64,000 bases of DNA from Sinohyriopsis cumingii (taxonomy: Eukaryota > Mollusca > Bivalvia > Unionida > Unionidae), in assembly GCA_028554795.2 (NCBI GenBank), contig CM068835.1, positions 28,894,311-28,958,310 of the forward strand. Reading direction: 5' to 3'. Under the pieces are notes generated by a model. The model did no database searches and was not told the origin of the DNA. It was given only the letters and a program-made list of their open reading frames with translations. The position numbers and the translations under genes are program-made. Of the stretch, positions 18,365 to 52,350 are shown in pieces. Within the stretch, counting starts at the first letter, position 1; each line of letters starts with the position of its first letter.

Positions 18365-18370
18365 TTCTTT
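18365..18370. other. target-site duplication of element A, left copy (TTCTTT)
   Basis: TTCTTT directly precedes the left terminal repeat and recurs at 29,272-29,277 directly after the right one. Polintons characteristically create 6-bp duplications. The exact boundary can shift by one base because the repeat end may include a T. Confidence 0.75.
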
Positions 18371-18643
18371 AGCAGCACAGGAGGCGAACAGATCTTTTGC
18401 CGAAACGTAACTTTGAAAACTAAAACCTCATACGAAAAATTAAAAATGCTAAGGACAATAACGTCAAACCGAAGCTTCTAAGTTATCAAGAGTTTTTTCT
18501 CCCAGAGTCTCTCTTGTGGGTTAGTTTCTTTTTGTTACTTTATTTTTGTCATTAGTGTTTTTCTAAATTTGTATGGATTTTTTTTGTTTACCCACCGGAC
18601 GTTTCATTGAGGTCGCGCCACCTCTGGTGCTATAATTAGATCA
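18371..18643 (+). repeat. left terminal inverted repeat of element A
   Basis: Matches the reverse complement of 28,995-29,271 across about 273 bases, by eye at roughly 75-80% identity. Long exact runs include AGGAGGCGAAC, GAAACGTAACTTTGAAAAC and TTACTTTATTTTTGTCATT. The inner end is marked by CTAATTAGATCA or its variant. Confidence 0.9.
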
Positions 18644-18657
18644 TTATTATATCAATA

Positions 18658-19002
18658 ATGACACCAGATACGGAATCTTATACAGCTAGATTAGCTAGAG
18701 AAAGATTGGAAGCAATCAAAAAGTTTTTGCCTGTTCGTGGTTCTCTTAAACAAAAACCTCAAGAACGTCAAGAAGCACACGTTGAATTTTCAGAAGGTAC
18801 AGAAAAGTTATTTAAACCCATGACAAAGGTTACTGAAAAAGCTGCAGTAGTTGCTAAAAGTCTTCGTCCAACGTTAGAACAGACTGCTAAATATACTAAG
18901 GGAACAAAAAGACGTTTACAAAAACTTCCAGCCGCAATAGTTGCTGTTCAGCCTCTTCCTGCTGATGCATATGAAGAAATACTTGATGAATGGCTGATAT
19001 AA
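18658..19002 (+). CDS. coiled-coil-like virion protein of element A
   Basis: Intact frame of 114 codons starting just inside the left terminal repeat. The first ATG (18,658) directly follows the repeat end. The sequence is rich in Lys, Glu, Ala and Thr, helical, and without membrane segments; a central block GTEKLFKPMTKVTEKA resembles ETARLFRPLTETLLG in the element B protein at 34,216-34,425, which lies near that element's capsid genes. The shared block and similar size suggest a homologous structural or accessory protein of unknown role. Its stop overlaps the next start (ATG at 18,990). Confidence 0.55.
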   Translation: MTPDTESYTARLARERLEAIKKFLPVRGSLKQKPQERQEAHVEFSEGTEKLFKPMTKVTEKAAVVAKSLRPTLEQTAKYTKGTKRRLQKLPAAIVAVQPLPADAYEEILDEWLI

Positions 19003-19295
19003 AAGAATCTGTATAAAAAAAAACAAGAGAGGATAAACCAAAGGGAAGAAAAGGTGTTATATTTATTGTAAAATTATCTGATAAAGGTGTTAATAAAATA
19101 AAAAGTCAAAAAGATATAGTTAAATTATCTGCGTTTGCTGTGTTAGGTTATCCTCGAAGAAGAAATTTTTTAAACCCTAAACATCTTAAAGGTGTTAATC
19201 ATAACACATGGTATAATTGGGTGTATTGGGCACATCAAGGACTTGATCAGATAGATAGTAACGATATAAATACATTAATTATTCTAGGGGAATAA
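18990..19295 (+). pseudogene. small basic protein of element A, one in-frame stop
   Basis: Frame starting at ATG 18,990, overlapping the end of the previous gene, kept to a stop at 19,293. One TAA at 19,014 interrupts it. The residues after it are basic (KKTREDKPKGRKG), then VIFIVKLSDKGVNKIKSQ and an aromatic end (HNTWYNWVYWAHQG). No family recognised. The 13-base overlap with the upstream gene supports both as real genes of one transcription unit. Confidence 0.4.
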
Positions 19296-19299
19296 ATAA

Positions 19300-19479
19300 T
19301 TTTCTACAGCAGTAAGAAGACGAGAAACAAAAACTACCAATATATTAGAAGTTCTGATTGGAGGAAAACGCGCAGGAAATAATTCGCCGGAAATTATTAA
19401 TGAAATCTCTGATATTTGTCGAAGGTTGTTTACTGGCGGTATTATAGATCGCAACATTTATTTTTCTCTCATCGACTAA
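19300..19479 (+). CDS. short unassigned frame of element A
   Basis: 59 open codons without a clear ATG at the start, reading STAVRRRETKTTNILEVL then IGGKRAGNNSPEI. It sits between two supported genes in the same direction and may be a fragment. No function can be given. Confidence 0.25.
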   Translation, partial: FSTAVRRRETKTTNILEVLIGGKRAGNNSPEIINEISDICRRLFTGGIIDRNIYFSLID

Positions 19480-19534
19480 AAAACAAGTAATTAATCAACA
19501 TGAATTTAAAAAATGATTATACACAATGCACAAC

Positions 19535-19894
19535 GTGGACCTGTAATGATTAGCAACTTACAAATCGATTTACAGAGATGGACTTGGTGATGTTGTCGAT
19601 GTTCTATTTAGAAGGATAGCCCCAAAAGCAATACCGATTGCATAACAACTAGGAATGAAGGCTATTAAGGCTATTCGTGATAAAGTTATTAATGCTATTG
19701 GTAATCTTGCTGTTAAAGCGTTCTCGACAGTCAAGGATAGATTAGCTCCATTATTACGAAGAAAACCACAGCCCGTAAAATTACCTAGCACTGAAGTTAT
19801 GCATGCAAATGTCAGTAAAATAATAAATCAAGCTGCAAATAAAAAAACTATCAGAGTTGGCTCAAACGTATATCCGATCCAGCGTTCGATATAG
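19535..19894 (+). pseudogene. small core- or membrane-associated virion protein of element A
   Basis: The frame reads YRDGLGDVVDVLFRRIAP then, after one stop (TAA at about 19,645), an amphipathic stretch from an internal ATG (19,655): MKAIKAIRDKVINAIGN followed by LAPLLRRKPQPVKLPS. A Gly-x-Gly-Leu-Gly start followed by LFRxIxP and then an amphipathic basic helix is the layout of small adenovirus/Polinton minor virion proteins that contact membranes or DNA. The position directly before the major capsid gene fits. Exact homology is not shown. Confidence 0.45.
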
Positions 19895-21140
19895 ACTCAC
19901 CAGTTATCAAGGATGAATCTGTATGTGATTGTCAATTTTATTCTTACGACGCAAGACAACCAAATCGGCGTGAAAGAAACGAATTACAACTTCAAGATAC
20001 AAGTAACATTTATTGAAGTAGAAGGTAGCATTTTACAAGATGATGGTGCAGTAGTTCCACTCGGTGATTCTCCTTGTTTTGTTAACAATGGTATTATGGC
20101 GTTGCTTGACAGCGCAACATATATGATTGATGGAATAAATATTGAAACAATTCAGAAGGACGCCGACGTTGCTACAACGATAATAGGTTCAGCAAGCTAT
20201 TCAGATGATTATACAAGATCAGCCGGCCCATCAATGATATTTGCTAAAGATACATATAATAAACCTAAACATGCAAACTTAAGAGTGGAAGCAGCTGGAA
20301 CTGAAGTTGCATCGATGGACGATAATTTCAACATAGGCTTTGCTACACGTTGAGCAATGTTAAATGATGAAGAAACTTTTTCATGTGCAACTCAAATATC
20401 TCATATCTTTGGATTTTGTAGAAATGTTAGAAAAGGATTTTTTGGAGCTAAAACTAAAGTTGTACTTGTAAGGAAAGCCAATGACAATCATGCAATCTGG
20501 CTTCCTGCTGCTGCTCACAACTGTATGATAAGATTAACAAAACTTTCATTATGGATGCCATTGCTTGCTGATGAGCAAAAATTAATTTATTTCATGGACC
20601 AAGGTGGTAACTCATTGTTATCATGGTTAACAATGAAAATAGATAGCTTTCAAAGTAATATTTCTGGGTTATTTACATAGTAAATAGCATCACAACAAGG
20701 AGTTTCTGCGCCGAGGCATATATTTATCGCTTTACAATATACTAATCGACAAGATTCACAAGAACGTAGTCGTATGATATTTGACAAACTTGCAGTTAGT
20801 GAAGTTTCCTTACGAATAAATGGACATCAAGAATCGTCTGAAGATATATTATTAAGTTTTGAACACAATCATGTAGCACATGCATATCATCGTTTGATGA
20901 CATTTATGGGACGTGATCAAAATATAGATACCGGTTTACAATATCGCAGTTAGATTTTTTAAATATGTATCCGATCTATTACTTTTCATTGGAACATCTT
21001 GATTTATCTAGACAGTCTGTTGCTTATATTCACTTTGGAGAGCAATTGCAGTTATTCTTTCAGATAAAGTAATGTTACTTGAAGGTGCTGGTTGAAGAAT
21101 GAGAGTTATTGACGCACCAGTAGAAAACATGTAATTAAAT
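19895..21140 (+). pseudogene. major capsid protein of element A (double jelly-roll type)
   Basis: Capsid subunit of the Polinton/Maverick lineage, in pieces. An N-terminal half (19,913-20,353) has VTFIEVEGSILQDDGA, VPLGDSPCFVNNGIMALL, a SDDYTRSAG turn and WTFAKDT-like MIFAKDT. A TGA separates it, in the same frame, from 20,357-20,680 with HIFGFCRNVRKGFFGAK and MIRLTKLSLWMPLL. After a TAG-TAA pair, still in frame, APRHIFIALQ, MIFDKL and LRINGH follow, and then NMYPIYYFSLEHLD in another frame. These last blocks line up with the element B capsid (PRHVFHVFQ, YVFDSP, FRTLYPIFHFDVSKH), which supports both calls. Family members assemble the pseudo-hexameric capsid shell. Confidence 0.8.
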
Positions 21141-21144
21141 ACTT

Positions 21145-21400
21145 ATCATATTATAAAATGTTGTATGATCACGTTAGAGTCACTCTGACTTCCGGTCAGG
21201 AGACAAAATTACAATCAAATCTTGCAAGTAAATGCGGAATAAAAATATCACTAAAATAAGATCAAATTTGATTTTCACGCAAGCACGTTTACAGGACTTC
21301 GTCGAAACTTTCAAAAACTTAATGAAATCGCAGATAATTTCTTTGGCACTCCGTTGACTGTTGACGTAAAACTCCGATATTAACACAAAACTTGGCAATA
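21145..21400 (+). pseudogene. possible pX-like core peptide of element A
   Basis: Following the capsid gene, a frame from ATG 21,159 reads MLYDHVRVTLTSGQETKL then CGIKISLK before a stop. The layout V-x-LT-x-x-Q-x-x-K-[LI] ... I-x-[IL]-x-[IL] resembles the start of the element B protein at 32,340-32,615 (HQVNLTPRQLKKITQ ... VSLKI), also placed beside the capsid gene. The rest is scrambled by indels. Low-confidence assignment. Confidence 0.35.
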
Positions 21401-21798
21401 TTAAAACAGTTATATCAGATATTGAAATGATTAGAAAAAGACTAGAAGATGTTATAAGTGGAATTCCTTATATCGTTAATAAAATTAATCACATTAAAAT
21501 TCCCCACAAGCAAATTAGCAACATAGTATTTACAGCAGGGTCTGACCAAGCAGTATGGTCACCAGTCAATAAAACCAATAAACATTGTGCTGAGGTTACC
21601 GGTAAATACAGGTTCTCAGTAATCGGTGCTGTAATATCTACCACGATTTCACGGCGTTATTCGTCAGGTGGGTCCATGTTAGTGATGTTAGATCAAAACG
21701 ACGAGATAACATTTAATGTGGAACCTGAAGAAGAAAAAAATCTCGGTTTGATTTCTTATTGGTGCCTTGAATTAGTAGCTACGTTCTCACCTAATTAA
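21400..21798 (+). CDS. unassigned structural-type protein of element A
   Basis: Open frame of 123 codons from ATG 21,427; the frame is also open some 60 bases upstream (NTKLGNIKTVISDIE). Helical start, then a beta-rich domain (KYRFSVIGAVISTTISRR, GGSMLVMLDQNDEITFNVE) that looks like a small jelly-roll or trimeric fibre head, and a hydrophobic end (LISYWCLELVATFSPN). It could be a spike or penton-associated protein; there is no clear family. The next gene begins six bases later. Confidence 0.45.
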   Translation: MKTVISDIEMIRKRLEDVISGIPYIVNKINHIKIPHKQISNIVFTAGSDQAVWSPVNKTNKHCAEVTGKYRFSVIGAVISTTISRRYSSGGSMLVMLDQNDEITFNVEPEEEKNLGLISYWCLELVATFSPN

Positions 21799-21804
21799 AA
21801 TATA

Positions 21805-22020
21805 ATGAGTATTCAACGTGATGTTGCAGCGCAAAATTATAGATATAATCAAGCACGTGAATGGCAAACAAATTTTTTAAAAAATATCGTTGACGAGAAT
21901 GTAATAAATATAAAGAAATATCGCAGACGTGTAGTTATTGTTGATATAATTGTTTATTCAGCGTCTGCTGTTATTGCTGGAATCGGCATGATATTATCAT
22001 CAATAACATGGAACCAGTAG
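21805..22020 (+). CDS. small membrane protein 1 of element A
   Basis: 71 codons, intact. The N-terminal half is charged (YRYNQAREWQTNFLKN), followed by one strong membrane segment near residues 45-68 (VVIVDIIVYSASAVIAGIGM). The stop overlaps the start of the next gene within ATGGAACCAGTAG, a 13-base overlap typical of compact viral genomes. Likely a membrane or virion-associated protein; function unknown. Confidence 0.55.
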   Translation: MSIQRDVAAQNYRYNQAREWQTNFLKNIVDENVINIKKYRRRVVIVDIIVYSASAVIAGIGMILSSITWNQ

Positions 22021-22397
22021 TTGTAACAATTTGTGTTTCAACTGCAACAACGATTGCCGGTATTCTCAACATCGTTGCAAGAAACTACGTGCATGGAACA
22101 ACTGCAAAATTGCATGATTATATAATAACATTACATACAGCAACGTTAGCATACTCCAAATTATCCTCGTTATTATCAAAGAGCCTTAGTGATGGGAAAA
22201 TATCAGATTTTGAGTTCACGGAGATGATCAAAATCTACGAGGAACCAATGACAGTGATTGATTTAGAAAATCAGGATTTAAAAAACAATGTCAATTCCAC
22301 TGACATAGCCAAGCGAGCTACTACAACGAATCGAAGCGAATACGACTCCGTCAAAAACGACAATGATATCGGTAAGCTTAACTCATCGAAAATTTAG
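22008..22397 (+). CDS. small membrane protein 2 of element A
   Basis: 129 codons, intact, starting inside the previous gene. The first 25 residues are a membrane segment (VVVTICVSTATTIAGILNIV), followed by an alpha-helical region (KLHDYIITLHTATLAYSKLS) and an acidic, polar C-terminal tail. The two adjacent one-segment proteins may work as a pair. No family recognised. Confidence 0.55.
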   Translation: MEPVVVTICVSTATTIAGILNIVARNYVHGTTAKLHDYIITLHTATLAYSKLSSLLSKSLSDGKISDFEFTEMIKIYEEPMTVIDLENQDLKNNVNSTDIAKRATTTNRSEYDSVKNDNDIGKLNSSKI

Positions 22398-22810
22398 TAT
22401 TAACTTTCCAACTGCAATTTCAGTGAAAGAAATCGCACTTGCGCAATTACGAGTATATTACAGCTGGCCAAATATAAGATGAAAATCATTTGGTGCATTA
22501 CAGGCGAATAATTCGTTTGTATTTGCAAATAGTAATAAAGATAATGGAACACCTGATTGGAATGTTGTTTCTATTCTTACAGGAAGTTATCAAATCGAAC
22601 AAATCAATGATGAATTTCAGCGCAGACCAAAAACTATAAACGAAAAAGAAGCGAAAATAGCTAATTTCAGTTCACCAACCAACTTTATCATCTGCGATTG
22701 AAATATATTCTCCAGATTACGTTGTAGATATTTATCACTCGTCAATCAGATCTGTTTGATTTGAACTATTAACATATACTACAAAGTTATTTCTCATTCC
22801 TTCAGGTCAT
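22395..22810 (+). pseudogene. candidate minor capsid or tail-type protein of element A, N-terminal part
   Basis: The frame reads INFPTAISVKEIALAQLRVY then YSWPNIR*KSFGALQANNSF, WNVVSILTGSYQIEQIND and EFQRRPKTINEKE, with TGA stops at NIR* and ICD*. The pattern 'hydrophobic strand with SWPNI, then TGSYxIEQINDEFQR' recalls a recurring Polinton structural protein whose start spans this region. No C-terminal part is visible, so the gene is truncated near 22.8 kb. Tentative. Confidence 0.4.
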
Positions 22811-23250
22811 TGACTTTAAGAAAGTGAGGTAACCGCTAAATTACTCTGTCAAGGAGAGGAGAGTCATCTCCCTTCAATAATACTGAAATTGGATTAATAT
22901 ATCAGATAAAAACACAATTATTCTATCTTACATGTTTTGTGAGTGGGGAAACTTCCGTTTTCATATATATACATAATTATAAAATTTCCTCTTCAACGAT
23001 AAAAGTCTTGAAATGGTAAAAATAATCGTTCTATCACTATTATTTTAACAATGACATGATAATACAAAAAAAAAAAAATTAAATAGTTTAGTAATATAAG
23101 CGGCATAACTACTTAATACCTCTACCGGATAGAGACAGAGTTATCTCTCTTAACAATAATGGAAAATGTTTTTTGTTTATATTTCTTAGAGAGAGCAGAT
23201 TTGGTTATATTTTCTGTGACAAAGTATACGGAAGACATGAAAATACCAAA
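22810..23250. other. intergenic, convergent gene ends
   Basis: No domain. It lies between the + strand structural genes and the minus-strand HNH gene, where their 3' ends meet. Contains two similar short segments (GAGAGGAGAGTCATCTC near 22,855 and GAGACAGAGTTATCTCT near 23,131). Confidence 0.4.
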
Positions 23251-23253
23251 ATA

Positions 23254-23612
23254 TCATTTCTTCGTATTTGTAGATTTAATTGATCTTGCAATGTTTGAAT
23301 ATTTGCCAGTATTACCGGATTTACAATTTTGCCTTTTTGTGACAGTTCGTAAATTTGATAAAGAGTTATATTTTGGATTTGAGTCAATATGATCGATCAC
23401 AAGACCGTCTTCGAGCACTCCGTTGAAATACTCGTAAATAAATATATGACAAAGATATCTTTTTATATTATTTTCCCGATACTGAATATGAGATAACATT
23501 GATTATTAACATAACCGACTGGTATTTTGCGTCGACAGTGCCTCATTACACCATCAGGATTTGCTTCATAATTTGTTATAATAGGGTGTCTAACAAATTC
23601 CTTTTGCTCCAT
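23254..23612 (-). pseudogene. HNH endonuclease of element A, one frameshift
   Basis: Begins at an ATG (complement of 23,610-23,612) with MEQKEFVRHPIITNYEA and NPDGVMRHCRRKIPVGY, then after a frameshift near 23,480 continues as CHIFIYEYFNGVLEDGLVID, HIDSNPKYNSLSNLRTV and TKRQN. The central HNH signature (D-H-I-D, N.., N-L-x-x-V-T-x-x-x-N) is complete. The nuclease would nick or cut DNA; HNH genes of this style occur as homing-type or accessory genes in large DNA viruses. It is on the opposite strand to the surrounding genes, so it may be a separately mobile insert within the element. Confidence 0.75.
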
Positions 23613-23614
23613 TA

Positions 23615-23947
23615 ATATATAATATAATTTGTTTAAATAATAATGTGTCTAAATCATCGCTTTGAAAATCTTGTTAGGTAATCGTCTACATCTTTTATAA
23701 CTTCAAAACTGTCATTATTTGTTTTAGCATAATATCTTTTCAGTTCTCTGTATTTTTACCACCACATTGCAAACACAACCGCGTTTCTCAGCTCACTCCA
23801 AAATCGCATTTCAAACGCGGTTTTGGCCCTAGACTTACATTACGTACGCTTTGAAAATGATGTCCGCAGAATCCGTTTACGCAAGCTTAGCTACAAAGGG
23901 TCTTAGAACGTATCATTAATCACTTGCATTTGTCCTTTTTATTAATC

Positions 23948-24031
<84 letters not shown>

Positions 24032-24056
24032 ATTTAAATATGTGCCTTAATTATAA
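23615..24056. other. intergenic gap of element A with (AT)n
   Basis: Upstream region of both the minus-strand HNH gene and the + strand polymerase, hence probably a divergent promoter region. No motif can be assigned. 23,949-24,023 is a pure (AT)n microsatellite. Confidence 0.5.
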
Positions 24057-26110
24057 ATGGATGAATTCGAGAGATTATCTACGATTAAGCCTTCTAAAAT
24101 AAATTTAATCTTGACAGAATATCCTCTGACTTACCAATAAAAACTCTGGTTGATCCGAAGAATAAAACCTTGATTAATAAAATTCACGACGCCAGGAAAG
24201 AATTTAGCAAAGATGGCGCGTCTCATGTGTGGTCAACATTCAAAATCACCGAGGATGTCGATGCAACGATGAATGACAAAGGAGCAGCAACGATCATTAA
24301 TTCTCTCAACAATCGAAAATATCTTTTTTTTTTAAATTTTTTGTATTAGTAGAAACACAATAATACCTGGATTATCCGTGACAAATATGACCCTGTCCTT
24401 CATAATGAAAAAATTGCAATACTGAGTAAAAATTCCCAACCAGGAAAGTTGACTGGTATTGACAAACCGTATTATGAAATAGCGTATCCTGTAACCACGG
24501 TTATTTATGGAATTTATCCGATAAATGATAAACCCATCGTTAATAATCTAAAGCCAATTAAATTTTCAAGACTGAATTGTATAGCCGAAGGAGTAGTGGA
24601 AACGGTCTAACGGATAAAAGACGTAAAATAATAAATGAGTGGGGAGAAATAATTAAGGATACCGGAGCGTCTGTCAAAGATATCACTGAGCTAGGAAAAA
24701 AAATATTCCCGATAACATTAAAAACAATAAACGGAGAAATTTTATACGAATCAAAATATAAATCGAAAGGTGCTTCGATTGAAATTATTGATTATAGTGT
24801 GCATGCGTGGACTAATGCAGAAACAATCTTTCCACGAAATCAAACTGTTAAATTTTACCAAGTAGATATGTTTGATTTTATTAACGAAATAAGTAAAAAC
24901 GATCCTGTATCAGTATGGTTATTTCAAAATTCTGATGATGGAAACTATGATCCGTTTGGACGACTTAATTGCGTTATTTGTCGCATAGATTCTCTCCACA
25001 AAGAAATGAAACATCTTGCGTGGAAATATACCGATGATGCTGAACAATTACTCAGCAATTGTTTTACTGTTCCTTCAGTCGTGGCTCATTTTGCTAAAGT
25101 GAAAAATTCGTGGAAACCAACTCGATTGATTTTCTCAATGATATAATATCGAGTTCTGTCGAATATGGACACGGTGAGTTGTGGAATAGTAAACACAGTC
25201 ATAAAGATGTTATTTTGGTTGATATGGTTGCATGTTATCCTGGAAGTTTCTTGGTATGAGAGAGTGTTCTCTATATTTTAAAAGATTTTGTCTTCCCACG
25301 CAAGAAATTACCAGAGAATCGATAAACGGACCATTGCCAGATTTTGACTTGACTGGATTCACTTGTATTGAGTCATTTAAGTTTGCTAAAGGTCTTCATA
25401 CAATCTATTACGCTTGGTTTGGCAATCATTTTTCAGAAAAAGATGTGGGTACCTACAATATTGTTACGATCTATGCTCGACATAAAAATACGGATATTTC
25501 TGACAGTGAATGAAGCAATTATATCATATCAATTATAGCAAATATTCTGATGATGAAAATCCTGATACAACCGATTACGAAAATAAAATCGCAAAAGATC
25601 TCGGCAGAAAAATAATCGGTAAATTCACCGTGGGAAGATCATATGATCATAAACGACATTGTACATGATTGATTATAGACAATGCTGAGTGAGATTTAAA
25701 ATTGCTGATGCAACGAGAAAAAATACATTTATAAGTCGAAGCAATGCTAACTTATCGGACGGAACCAAATTAGGTATAATTGTGAGTTATATGGACGATG
25801 AGTCACCGCAGTTTACTCATTTAAGATCTTCAATGCTCGCGTACGTTTCGATAAATCTATTATCGATGATAAATAAAAATTCTGTTTGATGTCAGAGTCG
25901 CTACAGATTCGTTTTTTATCAACAAAAAATATTCAGGATTGTTGGAAAAATTAAATATCGGCACTTATTCATCATGGGGCGAATGGAGAATACAATAAGA
26001 AAATATACTTGATTATTCTGAATCCGCCGACGTTGAAATCAAAGATATTTATTACAAAAAAATCAGATATTAAAGCTATCATCTGCACCGTCAGTGTATG
26101 ATCCCGTAGC
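24057..26110 (+). pseudogene. polB: family-B DNA polymerase of element A (unusual type)
   Basis: ATG at 24,057 opens MDEFERLSTIKPSKINLIL. After indels, 24,577-25,146 gives 189 open codons of exonuclease-like N-terminal region. Motif A is at 25,212-25,250 as VILVDMVACYPGSF (usual form DxxSLYPS). Then YFKRF, DFDLTGFTCIESFKFAKG and AWFGNHFSEK, and the motif B region IIGKFTVG. Before motif C is FTHLRSSMLAYVSINLL, and motif C at 25,891-25,911 reads VRVATDS, keeping the catalytic Asp. The replacement of SLYP by ACYP and the style of the blocks differ clearly from the element C polymerase. In-frame stops (HCT*LII, NAE*DLK) and frameshifts break it. The reading continues without a gap into the helicase, so the original may have been one long polymerase-helicase protein or two overlapping genes. 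Confidence 0.78.
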
Positions 26111-27110
26111 TAGACATTAAACAGTTTATCTCAATCGATCTTGGGGTTCTGGTAAAATAACTCGTGTGATTAAACTATTTGAGAATGTTATTATGGTAGT
26201 TTTAACCCCTACACACAGATTCGAGAGAAAGAAATATTAAATCATGTACTTATCATAAATTCTTTCGATGGAAGGGAGATAAATGGACTCTTGATCGAAT
26301 GGGTGAAAAATACGTTCCAAAGATTATCGTTTAGGATGAAATATGTACAGTGCCGCTAGAAACATTAAAAACATTTCTTGATTGGTTATTAACAAAAAAT
26401 ACTGCTGTGATAATGTCCGGCGATCATGGTCAACCACCACCTTTTGTTGGATTGTTTCCACATAAATGGCTGAGGACTTTTGTTGATTATTATGAAGAAA
26501 TAACTGATGACCATAGAGCACTTGATCCAGTATTAAGAGAGTTTAAAAAATGAATCAGTCTACAACCGAATAAAGTTCAGTGTGAAATAATGCGTGAAGT
26601 AATTTCAGAAACCCCTATTAACACTTTTTGGAATTTGTGGAGACCAGATGATTTGATAGTGGCAAGTAGAAAGATAGTTCGTGATACACTTCAACAACAA
26701 TTATTTATGATACATGAAGAAAAGTTTTCAAATCTACCCTTACCATTATGTTATCGACCAGTTGATACGCGACGACAGAATATCGACGTTGATATACCAG
26801 AATCGTCAGAAAAACAAAATCTTGTACTAAATGATATTGTTTTTGTTCCTGTCAATGTTGTTGGAGATGCGCTAAAAATGGACAAATCTCCGTGGACGTT
26901 AGGATTCGCGATGACAATTCACACATCTCAGGGGTTAACCATCTCTGATACTCGAATTTGGATCGTCGATGGTCATATCGAATGGTGAAATTTAGTTTAT
27001 ATCGCATTGTCTAGAGTTAGGAAAATATCTCAGTTGCGGTGGGTTATCATAGACTTTACAAAAACCAACGGCGATGTTATTGACAGTGATATAATAAGAA
27101 AAAAAAAAAT
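26110..27110 (+). pseudogene. superfamily-1 helicase of element A, joined to the polymerase
   Basis: Walker A at 26,142-26,162 reads WGSGKIT (GSGKT-like), followed by LTPTHRFERK (motif Ia position). Walker B at 26,326-26,340 reads IIV*DE, the stop replacing one residue. Motif III is GDHGQPPP. YYEEITDDHRALDP and KVQCEIMREV follow, then a long open frame (26,590-26,985) with VASRKIVRDTLQQQLF and TIHTSQGLT (motif V) and YIALSRVRK (motif VI). The order and spacing are those of Pif1/RecD-like SF1 helicases. Stops at 26,551 (TGA) and 26,986 (TGA) interrupt one continuous frame. It would unwind DNA ahead of the element's own polymerase. Confidence 0.82.
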
Positions 27111-27124
27111 AGTTATAAATAGTG

Positions 27125-27350
27125 TGACACAAAATATAAGCGCGAATTTGACCTTGATGCTGAATTTATAATGATGCTGAAACAACAGCAAAATTATCAT
27201 TGTTCGAGCTGTAAAATAGTAATGTTGCGGAGCAATTGTCTTAATGATCCAAGACAAATAACGTAGACAGAATTAATAATAAGTTTGATCATCCACGCGA
27301 AAATGTAATGCTGACCTCTCTTGAATGTAACTGACGACGAGGTGCTAGTT
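27125..27350 (+). pseudogene. Cys-rich HNH-like module after the helicase
   Basis: Directly after the helicase, KREFDLDAEFIMMLKQQQ then HCSSCK, and after a one-base shift VDRINNKFDHPRENVMLTSL followed by ECN*RRG. A C-x2-C pair, D-R-I-N-N, H-x-R-x-N-V and a C-N-x-R-R end are the layout of an HNH/zinc-ribbon nuclease. It may be the C-terminal domain of the helicase protein, giving polymerase, helicase and nuclease in one run. The link depends on a frameshift in an A-run at about 27,100. Confidence 0.55.
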
Positions 27351-27404
27351 TACATAAAAAGAATGCAGTGGTAATTGTGTGTCTTTAGGTATTACTTGTA
27401 ATTG

Positions 27405-28319
27405 TTAACGTACAAATGCACGTTGAGGAGCAGTTGAATCTAATCTGTAGATTGCAGGTCTACCCGTAGATCTTAACACGCTAGATATTTTATGTGTCGT
27501 TACACTCCAAATAGGATCAGTCGCTCTTTTTTTTACCACCTTCAAGTTCACCAGGTTCATATAAATATCTGACAGTAACATTACCTAATACTGGTCGGTT
27601 TGAAAAATCATGTCGTTGTATTGGTATCTGTTTTTTTTTTTCTAATTGCATTAATAGGTTTCATGACGGTTGGTCGAGTAATTTCCTTACTTAATGCAGC
27701 TATCACACTTGGTAATCTTGCAACCCATTCACGAGATCTCGTATCTTGAAGTATTTCCTTCGCATACTGATATCCAAATAACCGCTCAGCAAGTGTTCGA
27801 TTAAATCGTCCAACAATTGCTTGATCTGGATGTATTGCAATATGTCCTCGTCTGATTTTGACAGTATGTTTTTTCATCAGAGATAATACTGCACCAAGAA
27901 ATTCCTTACCAGGATCAACCTGTAATAGTTGTGGCCATGCTAAGGGTCCTCGTTAATAAATTCGCTCAAAAGCAGATACAACGTCAGTTGCTGTTTTAGC
28001 TGATAGTGGCTCTGCTTCTTTATATATACTTGCAACGTCAGCGACAGTTAACGCGTATTTCTATGTTAATTGACGTCTTCCAATTTCGATAGTATCGTGT
28101 GGCAAAAATAAAATATCAGCCAGATGAACTTCATTAGGAATGCTGACATCAAAATGTGCATGCTAAATTCGTTTAGGTGGTGGTAAATAAATTTTCCAAT
28201 TGCCTGTCGTGCTAACCATATTTCAGCAGTAAAACGTGTAACATTTGCTGCATCAGCAAGTTTATTAGTTGCTGCTCTACTCTCCAATATCCCCTTGGCC
28301 TATAGTAAATTGATTCCAT
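27405..28319 (-). pseudogene. integrase of element A (rve type), catalytic Glu lost
   Basis: Start is the complement of 28,317-28,319 with MESIYYRPRGYW. The N-terminal helical part (TRFTAEIWLARQAIGKF) shifts into HFDVSIPNEVHLADILFLP, the first catalytic Asp. KYALTVADVASIYKEAEPLS follows, then QVDPGKEFLGAV with the second Asp. The third block reads DQAIVGRFNRTLAERLFGYQ: where this family has a catalytic Glu (IVERFNRT) the codon is GGA, Gly. The C-terminal part runs through REWVARLPSVIAAL to YLYEPGELEGG and ends RLDSTAPQRAFVR at TAA 27,405. No chromodomain is seen, unlike integrases B and C. Stops (RI*H, LT*K, IY*R) and two shifts also break it. Confidence 0.85.
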
Positions 28320-28338
28320 TATTTTAATAATTGGTTAA

Positions 28339-28610
28339 TTAATTACCAGCCCCTAATGCTAGTTTACCTTTCATCGCGGATCATACCAACCAATTATCTA
28401 ATGAATCTCTGATATTTTTATTTTGTATGAAATGTAACGATTGAATCAACTTCACTTCTGTAATATATCTATCTTGTAGGTTTTTACTTTTATAAGCTAC
28501 ATCATGAATTTGACACGCTCTATCAATAGCATTTATAGGACGCTCTCGTCAATTCGAATATCAAGTAGGGTTCCAGGACCACAATAATTATATCCTGATA
28601 TATGAAGATA
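28339..28610 (-). pseudogene. phospholipase A2-like domain of element A
   Basis: Upstream of the integrase on the same strand. The frame reads HPYLHISGYNYCGPGTLLD, a Ca-binding loop of the YxGxGT/CGPGT type, then after a shift RPINAIDRACQIHDVAYK with the catalytic His-Asp (D-x-x-C-x-x-HD-x-x-Y). It ends KGKLALGAGN at a stop at 28,339-28,341. This combination matches the secreted-type PLA2 fold found in parvovirus VP1 and in some adintoviruses, where it opens endosomal membranes. There is one frameshift between the two motifs and a TGA (LV*SAM). Its N-terminus meets the ATPase fragment of the opposite strand. Confidence 0.75.
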
Positions 28611-28861
28611 TGGATGAATCACCGTCCGTAGATGAATTATTGGGGTTTATTAATAATTTCGTAGTATATGATGACGTAATGTTGGACAAACAATCAAATC
28701 CAGCTAGAATATTTTCTCGAGGAAGGCATAAAAATACAGATATAATTTATGTCACTCAACGATACACACACATACCAAAAGTAGTTAGAGATAACTGTAA
28801 TATTTTAGTTGTGTTTAATGGAGTTGATAGACATATTCTGATAATTATTGATCAGACTTAG
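28590..28861 (+). pseudogene. packaging ATPase of element A, C-terminal half only
   Basis: Open frame from ATG 28,610 reads ESPSVDELLGFINNF, then Walker B VVYDDVMLDKQ, the conserved SRGRHKNTDIIYVTQRYTHI and VVRDNCNILVVFNGVDRHI. The same blocks occur in the element C ATPase. The P-loop half is absent: upstream sequence is the PLA2 gene on the other strand. So the gene was cut, probably by a deletion or inversion joining it to PLA2 near 28,600. It ends at 28,861, about 130 bases before the right terminal repeat. Confidence 0.75.
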
Positions 28862-28994
28862 TGCAGCGGAGATCTGGACATAATTAGATTTAAAACTTCT
28901 TTTCAAAAGCACGATCTCCTCCGCACGGATTTATAACAATAATGTACACGATACTATAACAAGATGTCGTGTAGGTCTTGATAAAATATGTGGT

Positions 28995-29271
28995 TGATCT
29001 AATTAGAGCAGCAGAGGAGGCACGACCTTAATGCGACGTCAGGTTGGTAAATGAGAACATATATACTTTTTAGAAAACACGAATGACAAAAATAAAGTAA
29101 CAAAACCTAACCCCAAGAGAGAATCTGGGAGAGAAACTCTTGGATAGAAAATCTTGCTAAAATTAGATGCTTTGGTTTAGCGTTGTTGACCTTATTATTT
29201 TATTTTTTTCGTATGAAGTTTTAGTTTTCAAAGTTACGTTTCAGCAAAAGGTTGTTCGCCTCCTCTCCTGC
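28995..29271 (-). repeat. right terminal inverted repeat of element A
   Basis: Reverse complement of the left repeat, ending GCCTCCTCTCCTGC followed by the TTCTTT duplication. The inner boundary is TGATCTAATTAGA. Differences from the left copy are scattered substitutions and short indels. Confidence 0.9.
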
Positions 29272-29277
29272 TTCTTT
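29272..29277. other. target-site duplication of element A, right copy (TTCTTT)
   Basis: Identical to 18,365-18,370; it lies directly after the right terminal repeat. Confidence 0.75.
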
Positions 29278-29439
29278 GTTATATCGCAAGTTTCTACATT
29301 CGATATCTACTGTTTTATATTTCTTTAATTAAGTGTGCCGTGAAAAGTGTCAATTAGAGAAACAAAAAAGACAATAATATGTGATGGAAAATTTATGACA
29401 GATGCCGATGATCATCACAAATCTTGCTAGACATCAAGA

Positions 29440-30205
29440 GATTTTCTGTTGTCACAAGAGGTATATTTTTTTGCTGGTAAAAGGCTTGGCGTTGTGATAA
29501 ACATAAAAACAAAAAATGCAATCAGAATCTCAACGCCGGCGGGTCATAATATGAAACTGAAAGTCGTTAATAATAGCGAATACACCAGGATGTTCTTACA
29601 CGATTTTATCTGGACCTTGTTTAGCGGTGATGATATTCCAGACGGAATGAGAGCTTTCCCTATCGACAGCAGTGTAACAGACAATAACATCGCTAACTTG
29701 TCATTGCAAGACGAGTTTCAACCACATTCGATTTATATTTTTTACGAGGCCAACGACAGAGGTATGCTAACATATATTAAAACAAGGAAAGTTATAGAAA
29801 ATCTAAATAATCGTGGTTACTTGCAGGTGATGATCCGTGGAACTAATACTAATCAGGTTTGTTACAGATCCCACATATTTATCGACGAAGTGTTTCGTGG
29901 TTTAATTCCTGATGGATTAGTTGTTGATTGTCTTAATAATATTAAAACAAATAACCGTTAGAATAACTTGGACCTTGTTACACAACAAGAGAATAATAGG
30001 CGGTTAATGTTGGAAATCCTAACACTTTTAAAAATCTAAGACCGGTTGTATCACCTAACTCTGAAACAAACGAACAAATGTCGTTTCCTTCTATCACATC
30101 AGCCTCAAAGTATTTTAAGATTAATCCAAGATCAATTAAATGTGTCGCAGATGGTATCACTAAATCTGCGTCAATATCAACAGGATATAAAATTGTCTTT
30201 CAATA
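29440..30205 (+). pseudogene. tandem HNH-type endonuclease
   Basis: 170 open codons (29,449-29,961) and a continuation in other frames. Two similar modules follow each other: HDFIWTLFSGDDIPDGMRAF, PIDSSVTDNNIANLSL, and then SHIFIDEVFRGLIPDGLVVD, CLNNIKTNNR, NNLDLVTQQENNRR. Both follow the HNH layout (PDG...V-D-H-x-N...N-N...N-L-x-x-V-T-x-x-E-N), but the His of the core is Pro in the first and Cys in the second. A C-terminal DNA-binding-like part, SFYHISASKYFKINPRSIKC and ADGITKSA, reaches 30,205 after frameshifts. Relationship to element B or C is not settled; it starts only about 170 bases right of element A. Confidence 0.65.
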
Positions 30206-30229
30206 AGAATCACCTGCTATTTAAAATAT

Positions 30230-30490
30230 TAGCGACGTCGTTGTTGTCAAACATTAACTGAGATATTTGTTTAAGGTTTCCTTGTCGTATTGTACAAATA
30301 TTTTGCCGTATTTCAGCATGTGAACAAATTCTATTACTGCCTACAAAAATCAAATTATTTTTTCTCTTTCTACCTCAAAGCAAGCTACCACGTTGTCGTC
30401 ACCGGGGAACATATTTCTTACAACCTCTTCCAGCTGCAAGGGATTTACAACATTAGCTCGAGTAACAAATCTGTTCATATTTGATAATTA
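30230..30490 (-). pseudogene. small acidic protein, paralogue of the next gene
   Basis: The minus frame begins MNRFVTRANVVNPLQLEEVV then RNMFPGDDNVVACFEVE. After a stop it has HMLKYGKIFVQYDKETLNKY. The last block matches LEKYSKIFVRYDRDTVTKW in the neighbouring gene. No known family. The pair looks like a tandem duplication. Confidence 0.4.
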
Positions 30491-30498
30491 ACACAAAA

Positions 30499-30813
30499 CT
30501 AGAATGCAAGGCAGTCCATTTTCATATCATTATTTAGAATATTTCCAAGATTTTCCCTTGTCAAGCGGCAGTGAGCCCACTTAGTAACAGTATCCCTATC
30601 ATATCTAACAAATATTTTTGAATATTTCTCAAGTTCTAATACCTCAAAATATGTCAGTAATATATCAAACGCCGAATAAGAATCGTATTCAACGATAAAA
30701 TTTGCATACATTTTTCTGTTTTCTTATCACTCATAAACAGTTTGGCAGCGTCGAATAAGAAGTTCATATTTAAGATTTTAGCTTGGACGATTCTTCTTAT
30801 TTCGTCCGGCATT
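30499..30813 (-). pseudogene. small unassigned protein, paralogue of the previous gene
   Basis: Starts at the complement of about 30,811-30,813 with MPDEIRRIVQAKILNMNF. A frameshift near 30,710 leads into 70 open codons with VEYDSYSAFDILLTYFEV, LELEKYSKIFVRYDRDT and RLTRENLGNIL. Helical and acidic, without membrane segments. Function unknown. Confidence 0.4.
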
Positions 30814-30850
30814 TTATTACAGTAAATTAGATAAACGTATTATGTATAAG

Positions 30851-31115
30851 ATGTCTCAGACAAATTTCTCGTTTGCGAAAAATTTGTCAGATTTTTATAA
30901 TGACTTCGATTGTGATGCAGAGCATAAAAAATTCTATGAATGCCAATACTGACATTAATGCAAAACATCTCGAGTTCGATCTAGAAATATATTTATTTCC
31001 TGTCGTTGGGAATAAATTTGCCGATGAGCCAGGTATAATACAAGAACATGAACACGTTTATATCGCAGCAAAATCACAACATAATGTAAACTATCTCCTC
31101 CCTACAAAGATTTAA
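30851..31115 (+). pseudogene. unassigned + strand frame of element B
   Basis: ATG 30,851 reads MSQTNFSFAKNLSDFYNDF then CDAEHKKFYECQ and a stop; an alternate frame continues NANTDINAKHLEFDLEIYLF and EHEHVYIAAKSQHNVNYL to 31,115. The composition is protein-like but no family is recognised. It faces the integrase end to end. Confidence 0.3.
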
Positions 31116-31145
31116 ACGATTAATTTTACTGTATCTGGACGGACA

Positions 31146-31990
31146 TCAGATATTCTGGGAGTTGTTAAAGCCATTTATGAATCGTGGACAGTTAGAGCTT
31201 TGTGGTGGTCGGAAAAATCTAAAATTTGATATTCTGTTTGTTAAGATTTTTATCTGGATCGGAGAGTTCGCACTAACAACAACACGAAGATAAATATTTA
31301 ATATCGTTGTACAGGCCAGTGAAATGTAAATATGTCCTTTTGAAATACGAAAAGATTTATGGTAAGTGGATTGGATAGCTGGATTATATGAATTACGCGG
31401 TTGGATTGCTAGCGATTTCATTAAAGATTTTTGATATTTCACTGTTGGTCTCCAGCTATTAAAACTATCACCGTAACTTGTCCATTTGACCAAACTTTTC
31501 TTATCTTTTCGTGGTATCACTCGCTCGACGACAAATATATCCTGCCCTGTCCGCTGTAGCTCCTGTTTGTAGAAATTTCCAATAATTTTATCTCCGGCAG
31601 GTATTATCGTTAAAATTTTATCTACCACGAATACGTCCGCGGAGTAAATCCTTTTTCGAATGTTTTTGTTTCACTAGTGAAATTCTAACTCTATCACTAG
31701 CGCTAAACCTGTGTCTGCGGTAAATTTTCTCGTTCAAAAGTATTGGGTTATTTACAGCTTCATTTGGTAACAGTCGAAGTGTTTTATGTTTTGTGTTAAT
31801 GAAATCTGATACAGTCTTTGGCAGATCATTAACATATCTGTTAGTGTTTTTGGCTATGAGTTGCTTATATATATTTTATTTTAGCGTACGATTAAATCTC
31901 TCGACAATGACACTTTTCTAAGACTATCAACTACGATCATAAGGTACCTGCTATTGTCAATGTGCTTATCAAATTTTTTTTTAGGTCAGC
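31146..31990 (-). pseudogene. chromodomain integrase of element B with internal deletion
   Basis: Upstream end (31,930-31,980) reads FDKHIDNSRYLMIVVDSLRK, the block with the first catalytic Asp. It is joined almost directly to SVIVERFNRTLK, the block with the catalytic Glu, so the part with the second Asp is deleted at about 31,920. Then NTNRYVNDLPKTVSDFINTK, LRLLPNEAVNNPILL and FSASDRVRISLVK follow. After frameshifts, 31,440-31,628 has a chromodomain-like end: QELQRTGQDIFVVERVIPRK then SLVKWTSYGDSFNSW. The chromodomain tail is the hallmark of Polinton integrases and is thought to guide insertion through histone marks. The downstream 90 codons to 31,146 have no recognised domain. Confidence 0.82.
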
Positions 31991-31999
31991 GAAGTTCAT

Positions 32000-32293
32000 G
32001 TGCTAGAGCGCTCTGCGGTCCTTCGTTCATAAAGTACATTTCGAAATACTCCATGAAGTCCGCTTATATTTCTAACTTTATCTAACATCTCAAAGTTGCT
32101 CAACGGGCTTTCGGGAAATATTAGTCCTCTCCAAAGTCCGATTCTCAGCAGACTGAGAAGTAGAATTACCGCCATTACTGCCAGCAATGGACATATGAAT
32201 CCACCGTGGATCGCTTTCAGGTCTATCTTTTTTCTTCGTTGTATTGCTTTTCTTTGCTGTTTTACGTTTATGAACTCTTCGTGTTTTGGGCAT
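32000..32293 (-). pseudogene. basic protein with possible protease start
   Basis: ATG complement at 32,291-32,293 gives MPKTRRVHKRKTAKKSNTTK, a strongly basic start as in core or nuclear proteins. An overlapping frame has LSNFEMLDKVRNISGLHGVF, which weakly resembles the start of the adenovirus-type maturation protease found in Polintons, but the catalytic His-Asp-Cys part is absent, so the protease cannot be claimed. It lies between pX-like and integrase. Confidence 0.3.
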
Positions 32294-32339
32294 TTTTATT
32301 TATAATCGTTAGACGAAAGTGAAATGCTTGCATTTTACA

Positions 32340-32615
32340 CTAATTGATACCGTCAAAGAAAATAGCCTTCTTCATGGCACCGGATATGGCCCCCGAGGCA
32401 GCAGCTATCCGCAATGTGCCTGATACTGGTAATAATCCGCGTACATTGCAGTAACTTGCGCTGCTGACTGTCAGCATCAGTTTTGCTGACAAAACGCCAT
32501 CTCTCTGGTTTCTGAAAACTATCTTCAGCGAAACAGACTGTCGTTCAATAATAGCTTGTGTTATTTTTTTTAATTGTCGAGGCGTTAAATTCACTTGATG
32601 TGTAATGTAACTCAT
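32340..32615 (-). CDS. pX-like core protein of element B
   Basis: Intact frame of 91 codons. It begins MSYITHQVNLTPRQLKKITQ, then RQSVSLKIVFR and LMLTVSSASYC, and ends in an Ala/Gly-rich hydrophobic stretch (LRIAAASGAISGAMKKAIF). The layout 'V-x-LT-x-x-Q-x-x-K-I, LxI strand, second LT strand, Ala/Gly-rich hydrophobic tail' is that of the virion protein called pX-like in adintoviruses. It sits just downstream of the capsid gene, as expected. It is one of the few undamaged frames of element B. Confidence 0.6.
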   Translation of the reverse strand: MSYITHQVNLTPRQLKKITQAIIERQSVSLKIVFRNQRDGVLSAKLMLTVSSASYCNVRGLLPVSGTLRIAAASGAISGAMKKAIFFDGIN

Positions 32616-32840
32616 TTTGTGTTTATTTTTCTTCTGTTTGATACAATTTGTATTGAGGTCATTCCGCTGCTTGTTTGTGAATTAATATATTCCGCCCGCT
32701 TGTCTGATAAAATTGTAAAGTACAAGGCACCTGGTAGTCAGTCTAGCCAGTAAATCAATACATTCCACGGCTTGTTTGATAAGGTAATACCGCCAACATT
32801 GAAACTAGGACGGTCATCACGCAATTGGTTGAATATGTAG
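32615..32840. other. short intergenic of element B
   Basis: No gene or signal recognised between the pX-like gene and the capsid remnant. Confidence 0.4.
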
Positions 32841-43900: not shown

Positions 43901-44510
43901 TGGACTCAGGATACACTCTGATCCTTGCAACATAATTTGTAAAGAACAAATAATGTGGCAACAGAACTACAGCTAACTATTAAAGATACATCAATTGAAC
44001 CAACTAATCGTTGTTTCACTCAGTATAATTAATTGTATGCAAGGAGAGAGAGAGAGAGAGTTGTGGAAACAATGCATTGGTAATAACTTAATGTGTTTAT
44101 GCTACAGACATGGTCTTTCTAAATACATGTTTTGTCTATTGTATTCAGGCTTGCTTGTAAAATCCATATCATGATCATGAACCTTATGATTTTCAATTTG
44201 TAGATAGTTGTCTTAAAACAGACCACCCCTTTTACAAACGGTATGATAAAGAGCGAAATGTATTACTTTTAAATAGGCGACGACACAATTCGAAAGCGTG
44301 CAATAAAACAGTAAGCTTGTACCTCCAAGTGATTGTCGTAAAAGTGTGTCGTAAGATTGTGCCATAAGATTGTGTCATGTTCTCTTGTTCCATTTATGTG
44401 GTAATACCATGAGAGCTACGTGTTAAATACTAGAATAGATTAGCATGTAGAATGTATTTTTTAAGCTGTAGGGTATGCATAACACTTTCAGTCAGGTTTA
44501 TTTCCTGGAC
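41000..44510. other. non-coding host DNA
   Basis: No supported gene. A slightly GC-richer block at 41.5-42.1 kb has short open frames on both strands (up to 99 codons) with no recognisable domain. A short (GA)n lies at 44,045-44,060. Confidence 0.5.
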
Positions 44511-44519
44511 ATTGTTTAA

Positions 44520-45715
44520 TGCAGATTTGTCATCCTTCTTGCTTATAATTATGTCATCTTCCTTGCTTATGATGTCATCCTCCTTGCTTATAATTATGAT
44601 ATCTTCCTTACTTATAACTATGTCATCATCATTGCTTATAATTATGTCACCATCCTTGCTTATAATTATGTCATCCTCCCTGCTTATAATTATGTCACCC
44701 TCCTTGCTGATAAATATGTCATCATCCTTGCTTATAATTATGTCATCCTCCTTGCTTATAATTATGTTATCCTCCTTGCTTATAATTGTGTCATCATACA
44801 TGCTTATAATTATGTCATTCTCCTCGCTAAAAATTATGTCATCCCCCTTGCTTATAATTATGTCATCCTCCTTGCTTATAATTATGTTATCCTCCTTGCT
44901 TATAATTATGGCTTCCTCCTTGCTTATACTTATGTCATCCTTCTTACTTATAATTATGTCATCCTCCTTGCTTATAATTATTGCATCCTCCTTACTTATT
45001 ATTATGTCATCCTCCTTGCTTACAATTATGGCATCCTCCTTGCTTATAATTATTGCATCCTCCTTATAATTATGTCATTATCCTTGCTTATAATTATGTC
45101 ATCCCCCTTGCTTATAACTATGTCATCCTCCTTGCTTATAATTATGTTATCCTCCTTGCTTATAATTATGGCTTCCTCCTTGCTTATACTTATGTCATCC
45201 TTCTTACTTATAATTATGTCATCCTCCTTGCTTATAATTATTGCATCCTCCTTACTTATTATTATGTCATCCTCCTTGGTTACAATTATGGCATCCTCCT
45301 TGCTTATAATTATGTCATCCTACTTGCCTATAACTATGTCATCCTCCTTGCTTATAATTATGTTATCCTCCTTGCTTATAATTATGGCTTCCTCCTTGCT
45401 TATACTTATGTCATCCTTCTTACTTATAATTATGTCATCCTCCTTGCTTATAATTATTGCATCCTCCTTACTTATTATTATGTTATCCTCCTTGCTTATA
45501 ATTATGTTATCCTCCTTGCTTACAATTATGGCATCCTCCTTGCTTATAATTATGGCATCCTCCTTGCTTATAATTATGTCATCATTCTTGCTTATAATTA
45601 TGTCTCCCCCCTTGCTTATAACTATGTCATCCTCCTTGCTTATAATTATGTCATCATACATGCTCATAATTATGTCATCCTCCTTGCTTATAATTACGTT
45701 AGAAAGACGTGTGGT
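44520..45715. repeat. 24-bp minisatellite, about 50 copies with higher-order structure
   Basis: Unit like TCCTCCTTGCTTATAATTAT followed by GTCA, period 24. Because 24 is a multiple of three, the + strand frames and the minus frame stay open for up to 243 codons, but the 'proteins' are just an 8-residue repeat and are not genes. A larger block of nine or more variant units recurs, starting with GTTATCCTCC at about 44,886, 45,146 and 45,362. Confidence 0.95.
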
Positions 45716-47640
45716 CAGAAGAGGTATGGTCAGAAATACTGCACATTTACAATAATAGGTTGTACTTCACATTTACAACAGTAGCTTGTACATGCATTTT
45801 CTGTCTTTGAATTCATTCAGGACATCAGTCAGATGGTGTTCTGCTAAATGATTATTAATGTAGGTCACAGTTATCTCATTTTAATGTATCAAAAAGTCTT
45901 TTGAAAGTTGGCATCTAGCTAATTCTCACATGAAGCACTAAATGACTTTCGTATATGCAGGTTGATTCATGTAGTGAGTGTGTTTGTAACCTTCAAGGTT
46001 AAAATAATATTGAGAATATATTACTACCTTTTAGAAACCCATGTACAAGACACGATTCCATGTCCTATAGTGAGCACGTAGTCTGCAACCAACATTTAGT
46101 GTAAAACTGTTTTACTAACGACACAGGTTTGTACATGGTTTTGTAGCATGCACTGAGCGTTCGGTAAGTAGTTTATACTTGAAGATAGATCAGCGTGGAA
46201 ACTCTTGTCGTTACAGATGTACAAGAATGGGTGCTCTCATAAAATCAATTCAGGGAAAAAAGTAGTACCAAATCAATTAAAAAGACACATTATAAAAACA
46301 CCAAATTTAATAGGAAGATACATTAGTCATGATGTTTGTATTACGACCTTCTAAGAAGAGCAATAATTGCGCACGTTTAGATCACATATCTAATTACTCT
46401 ATACAGAGAATGCCGAGTTATCTAACTGTCACAGAAAGCTACTTTCTGGCCAAACAAATTAATGTTTATTTAGACTATTGTTTAACTCTGTTAAATACGT
46501 ATTTCTTTGAGCAAGAGAAGCAATAAATTGTAATAGATTTGCTTATGTGACGGTCGATAAAGCCGATCATCGTTTGCAATACAAATTAATAGAAACACGA
46601 AAGGCAAAGTTTATTTTCTAATGGTACATAATTGCTGCATATTTGACACATTTAGGAGCTGTGTGAGAAGCACACACTGTATTCAGATTGGTTTAAAAAG
46701 ATTCTCTTTGTTGGCTAGAGTCCCATTGCTGTTAGCTCTCGGTTCATCTGGCAAATTACGCATTCCGTGCAGAAGGTCGCAGCGCACCAGTCATTGCAGA
46801 TAGAGCCCTGTAAGAAAGTTAAACGTATGAAATATGAAGTTATGGGGTGCTTGCCACTTGATTACCTATACCATTCCTCAAATTACAGGTTGAACACTGG
46901 ATCATCCATTTGTCTGCACATTTCGAAATGCAAATTTATACCTGTTTATAAACTGACATTAGCCTCAGCCTTGCAAGTGAATGTTCGGTGTATGAAAGGG
47001 AAAAAAAATGATTTGAAATAAGGATAGGAGTAGCTCTTTTACGATGTGTACGACTAATTGTTATGTATATCTACTATTTGTAACTGTATCTATATTATGT
47101 ATATAAATTTAAGTGTTCTAAGAAGTTCTGGACAATGTCATTTGGATACATCAGGACTTTTGGCAGACCAGTACATTCGGAACACTCGATTATTTTGGAC
47201 CTGAATAGAACTTTAAAGGATTACTTTGGATTCACTTTATACTACTGTATGTTCCTCTTACATTCTTATTTTATAACTTTGAAATTATTTGTTGAGTTTT
47301 ACAACACCTGATGGTTTTGCTTGTTTCTGTTACTTAGTTTTTAACCACAGAGTTGTAATACAGTGATGTTGTGATATTTGAAAACAAAACGTACTGAAGA
47401 TATTTCACAGGTAAAGTTCTCGTCATTCTTTATGTTTCTATGAGTCTATATTTATTGAAGCAAAAGAGTAAAAAGCAAATTGTACCAGCGGTTGTTAAGT
47501 CTAGATGCTAATGACAGAAATCGATCAGTAATGTTGGAATACCCGTGAAAGTATTGCGATATTAAGGAACCAAAATACAAGAAACAAACTGTGTTACGCT
47601 CCTAATCTCGGCTCACTAGACAGTGCTGACAAGACATTAC
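45715..47640. other. non-coding host DNA
   Basis: Short frames only (up to 84 codons), none with a domain. Confidence 0.5.
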
Positions 47641-51990: not shown

Positions 51991-51994
51991 TGGT

Positions 51995-52350
51995 TTAATA
52001 TACAGACAGGATGTGGAACAATTTATACATACAGGATGTGGGACAACATACAAACATGATGTGGGACAATATACAGACAGGATATGGGACAACGTACAGA
52101 CAGGATGTGGAACAACATATAGACAGGATGTGGAACAACATACAGACGTGATTTGGGACAATATACAGAGAGGATCTGGAACAACATACAGAGAGGATGT
52201 GGGACAACATACAGACAGGATGTGAGACAGCATACAGACAGGATGTGGGACAGCATACAGACAGGATGTGGGACAACGTACATACAGGATGTTGGACAAC
52301 ATTTAGACAGAATTGAGAAAACATACAGACAGGACGTGCGGCAACATACA
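51995..52350. repeat. 23-bp minisatellite, about 15 copies
   Basis: Unit ACAGGATGTGGGACAACATACAG with variants (GGAACA, CGTACA). The period of 23 rotates the frame, giving long but meaningless open frames on both strands (Cys/Ser/His-rich on the minus strand). Confidence 0.95.

Follow-up and report, generated by a model that had tools for sequence, protein, structure and literature searches.

Genes for a DNA polymerase and a helicase that lie close together in an animal genome raise the question of whether they once encoded one protein and what kind of element carried them. Such a locus is found in a stretch of 64,000 nucleotides from the bivalve Sinohyriopsis cumingii (assembly GCA_028554795.2, contig CM068835.1, positions 28,894,311 to 28,958,310 of the forward strand), referred to here as the window, whose own numbering is used throughout. 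The initial annotation described a polymerase run together with a superfamily 1 (SF1) helicase and a Cys/HNH module, and suggested that this combination, together with a capsid gene, might mark a poorly described lineage of virus-like transposons. The genes belong to a decayed element of 10.9 kb with inverted arms at both ends (18371..29272, no strand assigned), named element A. Element A very probably goes back to an endogenous polinton-like virus (PLV) of the Tlr1 type, of which it is an old and decayed copy, bearing a protein-primed replicase, an integrase, a capsid gene and a packaging ATPase.

The broken replicase gene occupies 24057..27350 (+) and comprises an N-terminal Cys/His region, the palm of a protein-primed family B DNA polymerase (pPolB), an SF1 helicase and a Cys/HNH-like module. 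Motifs were read from a translation of 23900-27700 in the three forward frames, and the open pieces were searched separately without frameshift repair. Position 24057 is about the ATG that aligns with the Met start of three protein relatives (P0020, P0021 and P0024; P numbers denote protein relatives and L numbers places in the same genome), and, judged by the length of the interval, the original replicase would have been a single polypeptide of some 1,100 residues. Upstream of the palm, an open piece (24562..25143, +) carries a VHAW motif within HNxHAW, which is conserved in relatives, and RLNCIAEG lies at about 24580 in a neighbouring frame. Polymerase motif A (VDMVACYPGSF at about 25218) is contained in the piece 25098..25256 (+), followed by a polymerase piece with THLRSSMLAYVSINLL (25689..25886, +) and, in another frame than the latter, by motif C (VATDSFFINKK at about 25897). 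A Walker A-like GSGKIT stands at about 26145, so the distance of about 250 bases first reported between motif C and the helicase motifs is borne out (25897 versus 26145). Helicase motifs II and III (DEICT at 26335; GDHGQPPPF at about 26419) fall in 26335..26550 (+), the region up to motif V (TIHTSQGLTI at about 26914) in 26554..26985 (+) and motif VI (YIALSRV at about 26998) in 26989..27168 (+), and the Cys/HNH-like module is divided between two frames of 27123..27350 (+; CSSC at about 27201, DRINNKF...SLECN at about 27266-27331). The order of motifs A and C, the SF1 helicase set and the CxxC...DRIN...CN module over 24057-27350 is thereby confirmed by three-frame translation. The motifs are spread across all three forward frames with stops between them; this copy has suffered many frameshifts and has a degraded Walker A, with GKIT in place of GKTT.

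These motifs are not a product of chance, because genomic copies, protein relatives and an excess of third-codon-position mismatches all accompany them. Pfam scans gave no relevant match for 26335..26550 and no match for 26554..26985. The former region lies inside an open frame of copy L003 that matches PF13245 AAA_19 (expect value, E, 2.6e-9), and a protein search with the latter retrieved 19 relatives at 43-73% identity (best E 1.0e-58). A wider profile gave 30 matches, two of them the query's own rows. Mismatches between window pieces and copies at codon positions 1, 2 and 3 sum to 2095, 2185 and 2875 (nine slightly overlapping pieces, 21-27 copies each). The third-position excess holds in eight of the nine pieces, the motif VI piece having more first- than third-position mismatches, and is as expected for a gene under selection before decay.

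The different frames of polymerase and helicase within the window would suit a polymerase gene that merely adjoins an unrelated helicase gene of host or other transposon origin, a case that the initial annotation had itself raised against its proposal. This explanation retains next to no probability, as single unbroken frames span both parts. Polymerase and helicase form an unbroken fusion in P0032, P0031, P0029, P0024, P0041 and P0023, and such a frame is also present in P0028 and in copy L003. In P0032 (793 aa), all 12 landmarks between motif A and ECN, both included, share a single frame, which takes in polymerase motifs A and C, the Walker A site, helicase motifs II, III, V and VI, and the Cys/HNH module. 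P0023 (561 aa), from a 143-Mb contig of Sinanodonta woodiana, has the palm and the Walker A site in one protein, and P0024 (979 aa) extends from a Met start to past motif III. Moreover, the domain order is kept between P0032 and P0041, P0023 and P0024 at just 46-51% identity. The C-terminal module (CxxCN, DRxxN, (C/Y)LECN) is unbroken and in frame with motif VI in P0016, P0019, P0032, L006 and L011; in P0016 and P0019, one frame leads from motif V past VI to CxxCN, DRLDN and LECN. Side-by-side unrelated genes were rejected on account of these uninterrupted proteins, and polymerase and helicase are accordingly regarded as one fused replicase. The further expectation that intact copies encode one fused protein holds for database relatives such as P0032; in the own genome, no place among 28 read has motifs A and C in one frame.

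Those 28 places (L002-L029, several partial, L002 being the window's own) come from a search of the whole assembly (2.90 Gb, 1,138 contigs). The replicase region is represented there by at least 55 matching pieces at at least 40 places, a lower bound resting on 40 scored places, the window among them, out of 14,057 first-look candidates. Copies other than the window are 76-88% identical to its replicase region. Single-frame spans among the 28 places run from motif C to III in one, II to VI in two, V to ECN in two and VI to ECN in three, with L003 (3298-3993), L006 (4349-4831) and L011 (2979-3869) as examples. In the tree, the four rows from the window's own genome cluster with P0024, P0028, P0034 and the Sinanodonta protein P0023 at 100/100, and P0051 and other rows stand apart from that group; the root is for drawing only, several rows are fragmentary, and P0051 and P0026 form long branches. 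P0051, from the arbuscular mycorrhizal fungus Diversispora epigaea, is a distant, damaged-looking polymerase-helicase relative at 24% identity, and suggests a wide host spread of the replicase family. Its fungal host could also be taken to mean that the elements derive from a contaminating protist or fungus instead of the animal. Such an origin is very unlikely, since the copies are distributed over many contigs of chromosome size and P0023 lies on its 143-Mb contig in another mussel. The assembly size, the lengths of the contigs examined (72-193 Mb among those numbered up to C19, no more than about 5 Mb from C33 onward), TTAGGG repeats at 1,357 places versus 0 for the reversed pattern, and the unionid source of the nearest named relative point to a bivalve host, perhaps a freshwater mussel; unionids have 19 chromosomes.

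The domains of the replicase can be described more closely from predicted folds and alignments. Predicted structures match the protein-primed polymerase of phi29 and then RecD2, Dda and Pif1 helicases; the palm is of the protein-primed family B, and the SF1 helicase lies C-terminal to it in the same protein. In the models the helicase is of SF1B, RecD2/Pif1-type. Motif C lacks its first Asp, reading VATDS in the window and in 12 of the 13 alignment rows that cover it, the divergent P0051 being the exception. Of the 10 rows that have residues at the position concerned, 8 show NCVA upstream of the palm (P0038 and P0051 do not), with Tyr replacing its Cys in copy L003, and His257 of HNxHAW, likewise upstream, is present in 10 of 11. 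Between H257 and motif A, no acidic position is common to all rows except E395 beside the palm. This residue pattern fits an OTU-like Cys/His pair with loss of the exonuclease site. The N-terminal region is probably a primer domain with an OTU-type self-cleaving protease, as its residues suggest, and the models leave room for a remnant exonuclease fold that the replicase may contain.

The limits of the element were set by its inverted arms. The left terminal inverted repeat (18371..18643, +), starting AGCAGCACAGGAGGCGAACA, aligns with the right one (28995..29272, -) at 85.2% identity across 264 bases (Kimura two-parameter distance 0.165), and the insertion is therefore old. The left end is fixed because the start sites of other copies agree. 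Among 40 matches scored from 3,501 candidates, window included, the 39 others start exactly at the equivalent of 18371 in 20 cases and within -4/+3 bases in 33, and AGCAGCA opens 25 of 30 left ends (window included, some duplicates). The element is flanked by the 5-bp repeat TCTTT (18366..18370 and 29273..29277, no strand), read as a target-site duplication. Among six copies with both ends, such repeats are exact in three (TCTTT in the window, TAAAC and GCACC) and have one mismatch in a fourth; the chance of a 5-bp flank match from base composition is 0.0015. The distance from left end to replicase start in other copies ranges from about 1.7 to 10 kb, and element lengths therefore vary.

The remaining genes of element A complete the picture. 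Double jelly-roll (DJR) capsid pieces lie at 19895..20950 (+), where two adjoining pieces cover successive parts of PF21738 DJR-like_dom (E 2.7e-4 for profile 64-133 and 5.3e-5 for 181-246); the Pfam scan of 19895-20350 gave no match. A genome-packaging ATPase piece (28514..28858, +) matches PF04665 Pox_A32 (E 4.1e-7, 30.2 bits against a cut-off of 22.8). The C-terminal part of an RVE (DDE) integrase was placed at 27611..27952 (-) from the same gene in copies, the window piece itself having no match in the Pfam scan, and 28069-28299 (-) is probably its N-terminal part. An RVE integrase was accepted on an rve match of copy L008, the motifs HQAD, VDPGKE and AIVERF, and weak matches of the L008 piece to retroviral integrases in the PDB (E 0.013-0.084). 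Adjoining the integrase is a phospholipase A2-like (PLA2-like) gene piece (28384..28548, -) with DRACQIHDVAY, which includes an HD active-site-like motif. It matches PF08398 below cut-off in the window (E 4.3e-4) and above it in copies L006 (5821-6153, E 4.2e-14) and L009 (68-523, E 1.1e-10). Additionally, an HNH_3 homing-type endonuclease gene lies inside the element at 23257..23502 (-; PF13392, E 7.6e-14), distinct from the replicase's own Cys/HNH tail.

A DJR capsid, a packaging ATPase, an RVE integrase and inverted terminal repeats are shared with canonical Polintons/Mavericks and adintoviruses. Polinton ends begin with AG, as do those of element A, and Polintons produce 6-bp target-site duplications. 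Acquisition of a helicase by an otherwise canonical animal Polinton or adintovirus would explain the shared genes and ends; it is nevertheless improbable. The replicase is fused to an SF1 helicase, unlike that of a canonical Polinton, and none of seven relatives matched DNA_pol_B_2 (PF03175) in a scan that allowed E values up to 10, from which HMMER filters remove most hits above 0.1 and which was run without a positive control. Furthermore, no conserved exonuclease acidic pair lies between HNxHAW and motif A, and the target-site repeat is of 5 bp, not 6. The view that the element departs from a typical Polinton is thus upheld by the profile scan, with capsid, ATPase and integrase pieces present.

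The closest counterpart is the Tlr1 type, whose pPolB-S1H fusion (S1H, SF1 helicase) is said to have been called inactivated by Krupovic et al. in 2016. Tlr1-like helicases are described as proteins of PLVs, Tlr1 and transpovirons in which a terminal protein, a viral OTU-like protease, a palm and an S1H follow one another; the exonuclease is lost, motif C is changed, a GIY-YIG or HNH domain stands at the C-terminus, and the palm with changed motif C is predicted to synthesise DNA (PMC11071308). The replicase of element A shares with them the protein-primed-type palm, the SF1 helicase followed by a putative homing-nuclease-like module, the lack of a conserved exonuclease acidic pair, the changed first Asp of motif C, and a conserved Cys and His that precede the palm. 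Tlr1 itself also has an RVE integrase, as element A does. Unlike these systems as there described, element A most likely has a bivalve host and carries the PLA2-like gene and a second HNH gene. By E-value, the best structural match of both models is BFVD H6WBE3 (999 aa; 5.5e-15 and 2.5e-16), the alignments being 1000 and 741 columns long, at 12-14% identity and with low TM-scores of 0.20-0.25.

Another endogenous, decaying PLV, from Oxyrrhis marina, likewise encodes pPolB fused to an SF1 helicase, with the helicase N-terminal and the exonuclease kept (PMC12721341). That element A is a relative of it with its own helicase-polymerase fusion has hardly any probability, because the domain order is reversed, the helicase of element A being C-terminal, and conserved exonuclease residues are missing here. 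Kinship with the Oxyrrhis PLV is at odds with the domain order. As the architecture agrees, so far as tested, with the published description of Tlr1-like helicases (PMC11071308), the replicase type is already known; what is less expected is an old, high-copy family in a bivalve genome. The suggestion of a poorly described lineage is accordingly sustained for the host and lineage, an animal genome, and withdrawn for the replicase.

For a Tlr1-type element, the course of replication and insertion can be proposed by analogy with the protein families. Copying of the linear genome would most likely start at the inverted-repeat ends, primed by a protein, and the Cys/His domain would cleave the replicase by its own activity. 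The fused helicase would open the duplex ahead of the polymerase, assisting strand displacement. The RVE integrase would insert the element DNA with a 5-bp stagger, giving the 5-bp duplication, and the capsid protein and A32-type ATPase would package the DNA into putative virions.

Several observations weigh against this assignment. Both predicted models have a mean predicted local distance difference test score of 69, the N-terminal 270 residues are poorly modelled, and the OTU and terminal-protein domains are unsupported by fold. Some phi29 alignment rows start at phi29 residue 52, or even 5, and so reach its exonuclease fold. Matches of the C-terminal module to Pfam HNH are weak (E 0.02-0.06, below cut-off), both PF21738 capsid matches are under the curated cut-off, and rve PF00665 is matched by one of four copy pieces (L008, E 1.4e-7, 32.2 bits, cut-off 32.6). 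A minor capsid protein and an Ulp1-type protease are absent from Pfam scans of the short, decayed pieces. Among the six two-ended copies, one lacks the 5-bp repeat and one, in a TA simple repeat, is uninformative. Finally, kinship to the Tlr1, transpoviron and PLV fusions is drawn from architecture, folds and published descriptions, not from direct sequence comparison.

It is likely, with less assurance than the assignment itself, that Tlr1-type viruses entered the animal germ line and gave rise in a bivalve lineage to a strongly diverged family of high copy number that has an integrase of its own and 5-bp target repeats, forming an animal pPolB-S1H branch apart from Maverick-Polintons with kin in fungi and metagenomes. 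Six pattern scans detected no relatives in viral contigs, and no report of pPolB-S1H fusions in bivalves or other animals was found in the open literature by title and abstract. In a protist genome survey, the metazoan capsid genes of the data set are described as falling in one Maverick-Polinton group, with cnidarians as the sole metazoan exception (PMC10120064). A bivalve carrying a pPolB-S1H family would run counter to the Maverick-Polinton/metazoan split reported there. Many copies with datable ends also offer material for the study of how polymerase-helicase fusions replaced exonuclease-bearing polymerases.

Other features lie elsewhere in the window. Immediately to the right of element A are a further HNH_3 gene (29431-29958, +; PF13392, E 9.4e-9) and pieces resembling an integrase that match a chromodomain weakly (31149-31875, -; E 0.02), and 29431-32681 perhaps represents remnants of a second, ordinary Polinton-type element. 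Tandem arrays of 24-bp and 23-bp units, open in several frames, occupy 44431-45750 and 51979-52354. Near the end of the window, an RNase H piece (62657-63379, -; PF00075, E 7.9e-7) probably derives from a long interspersed nuclear element (LINE) retrotransposon.
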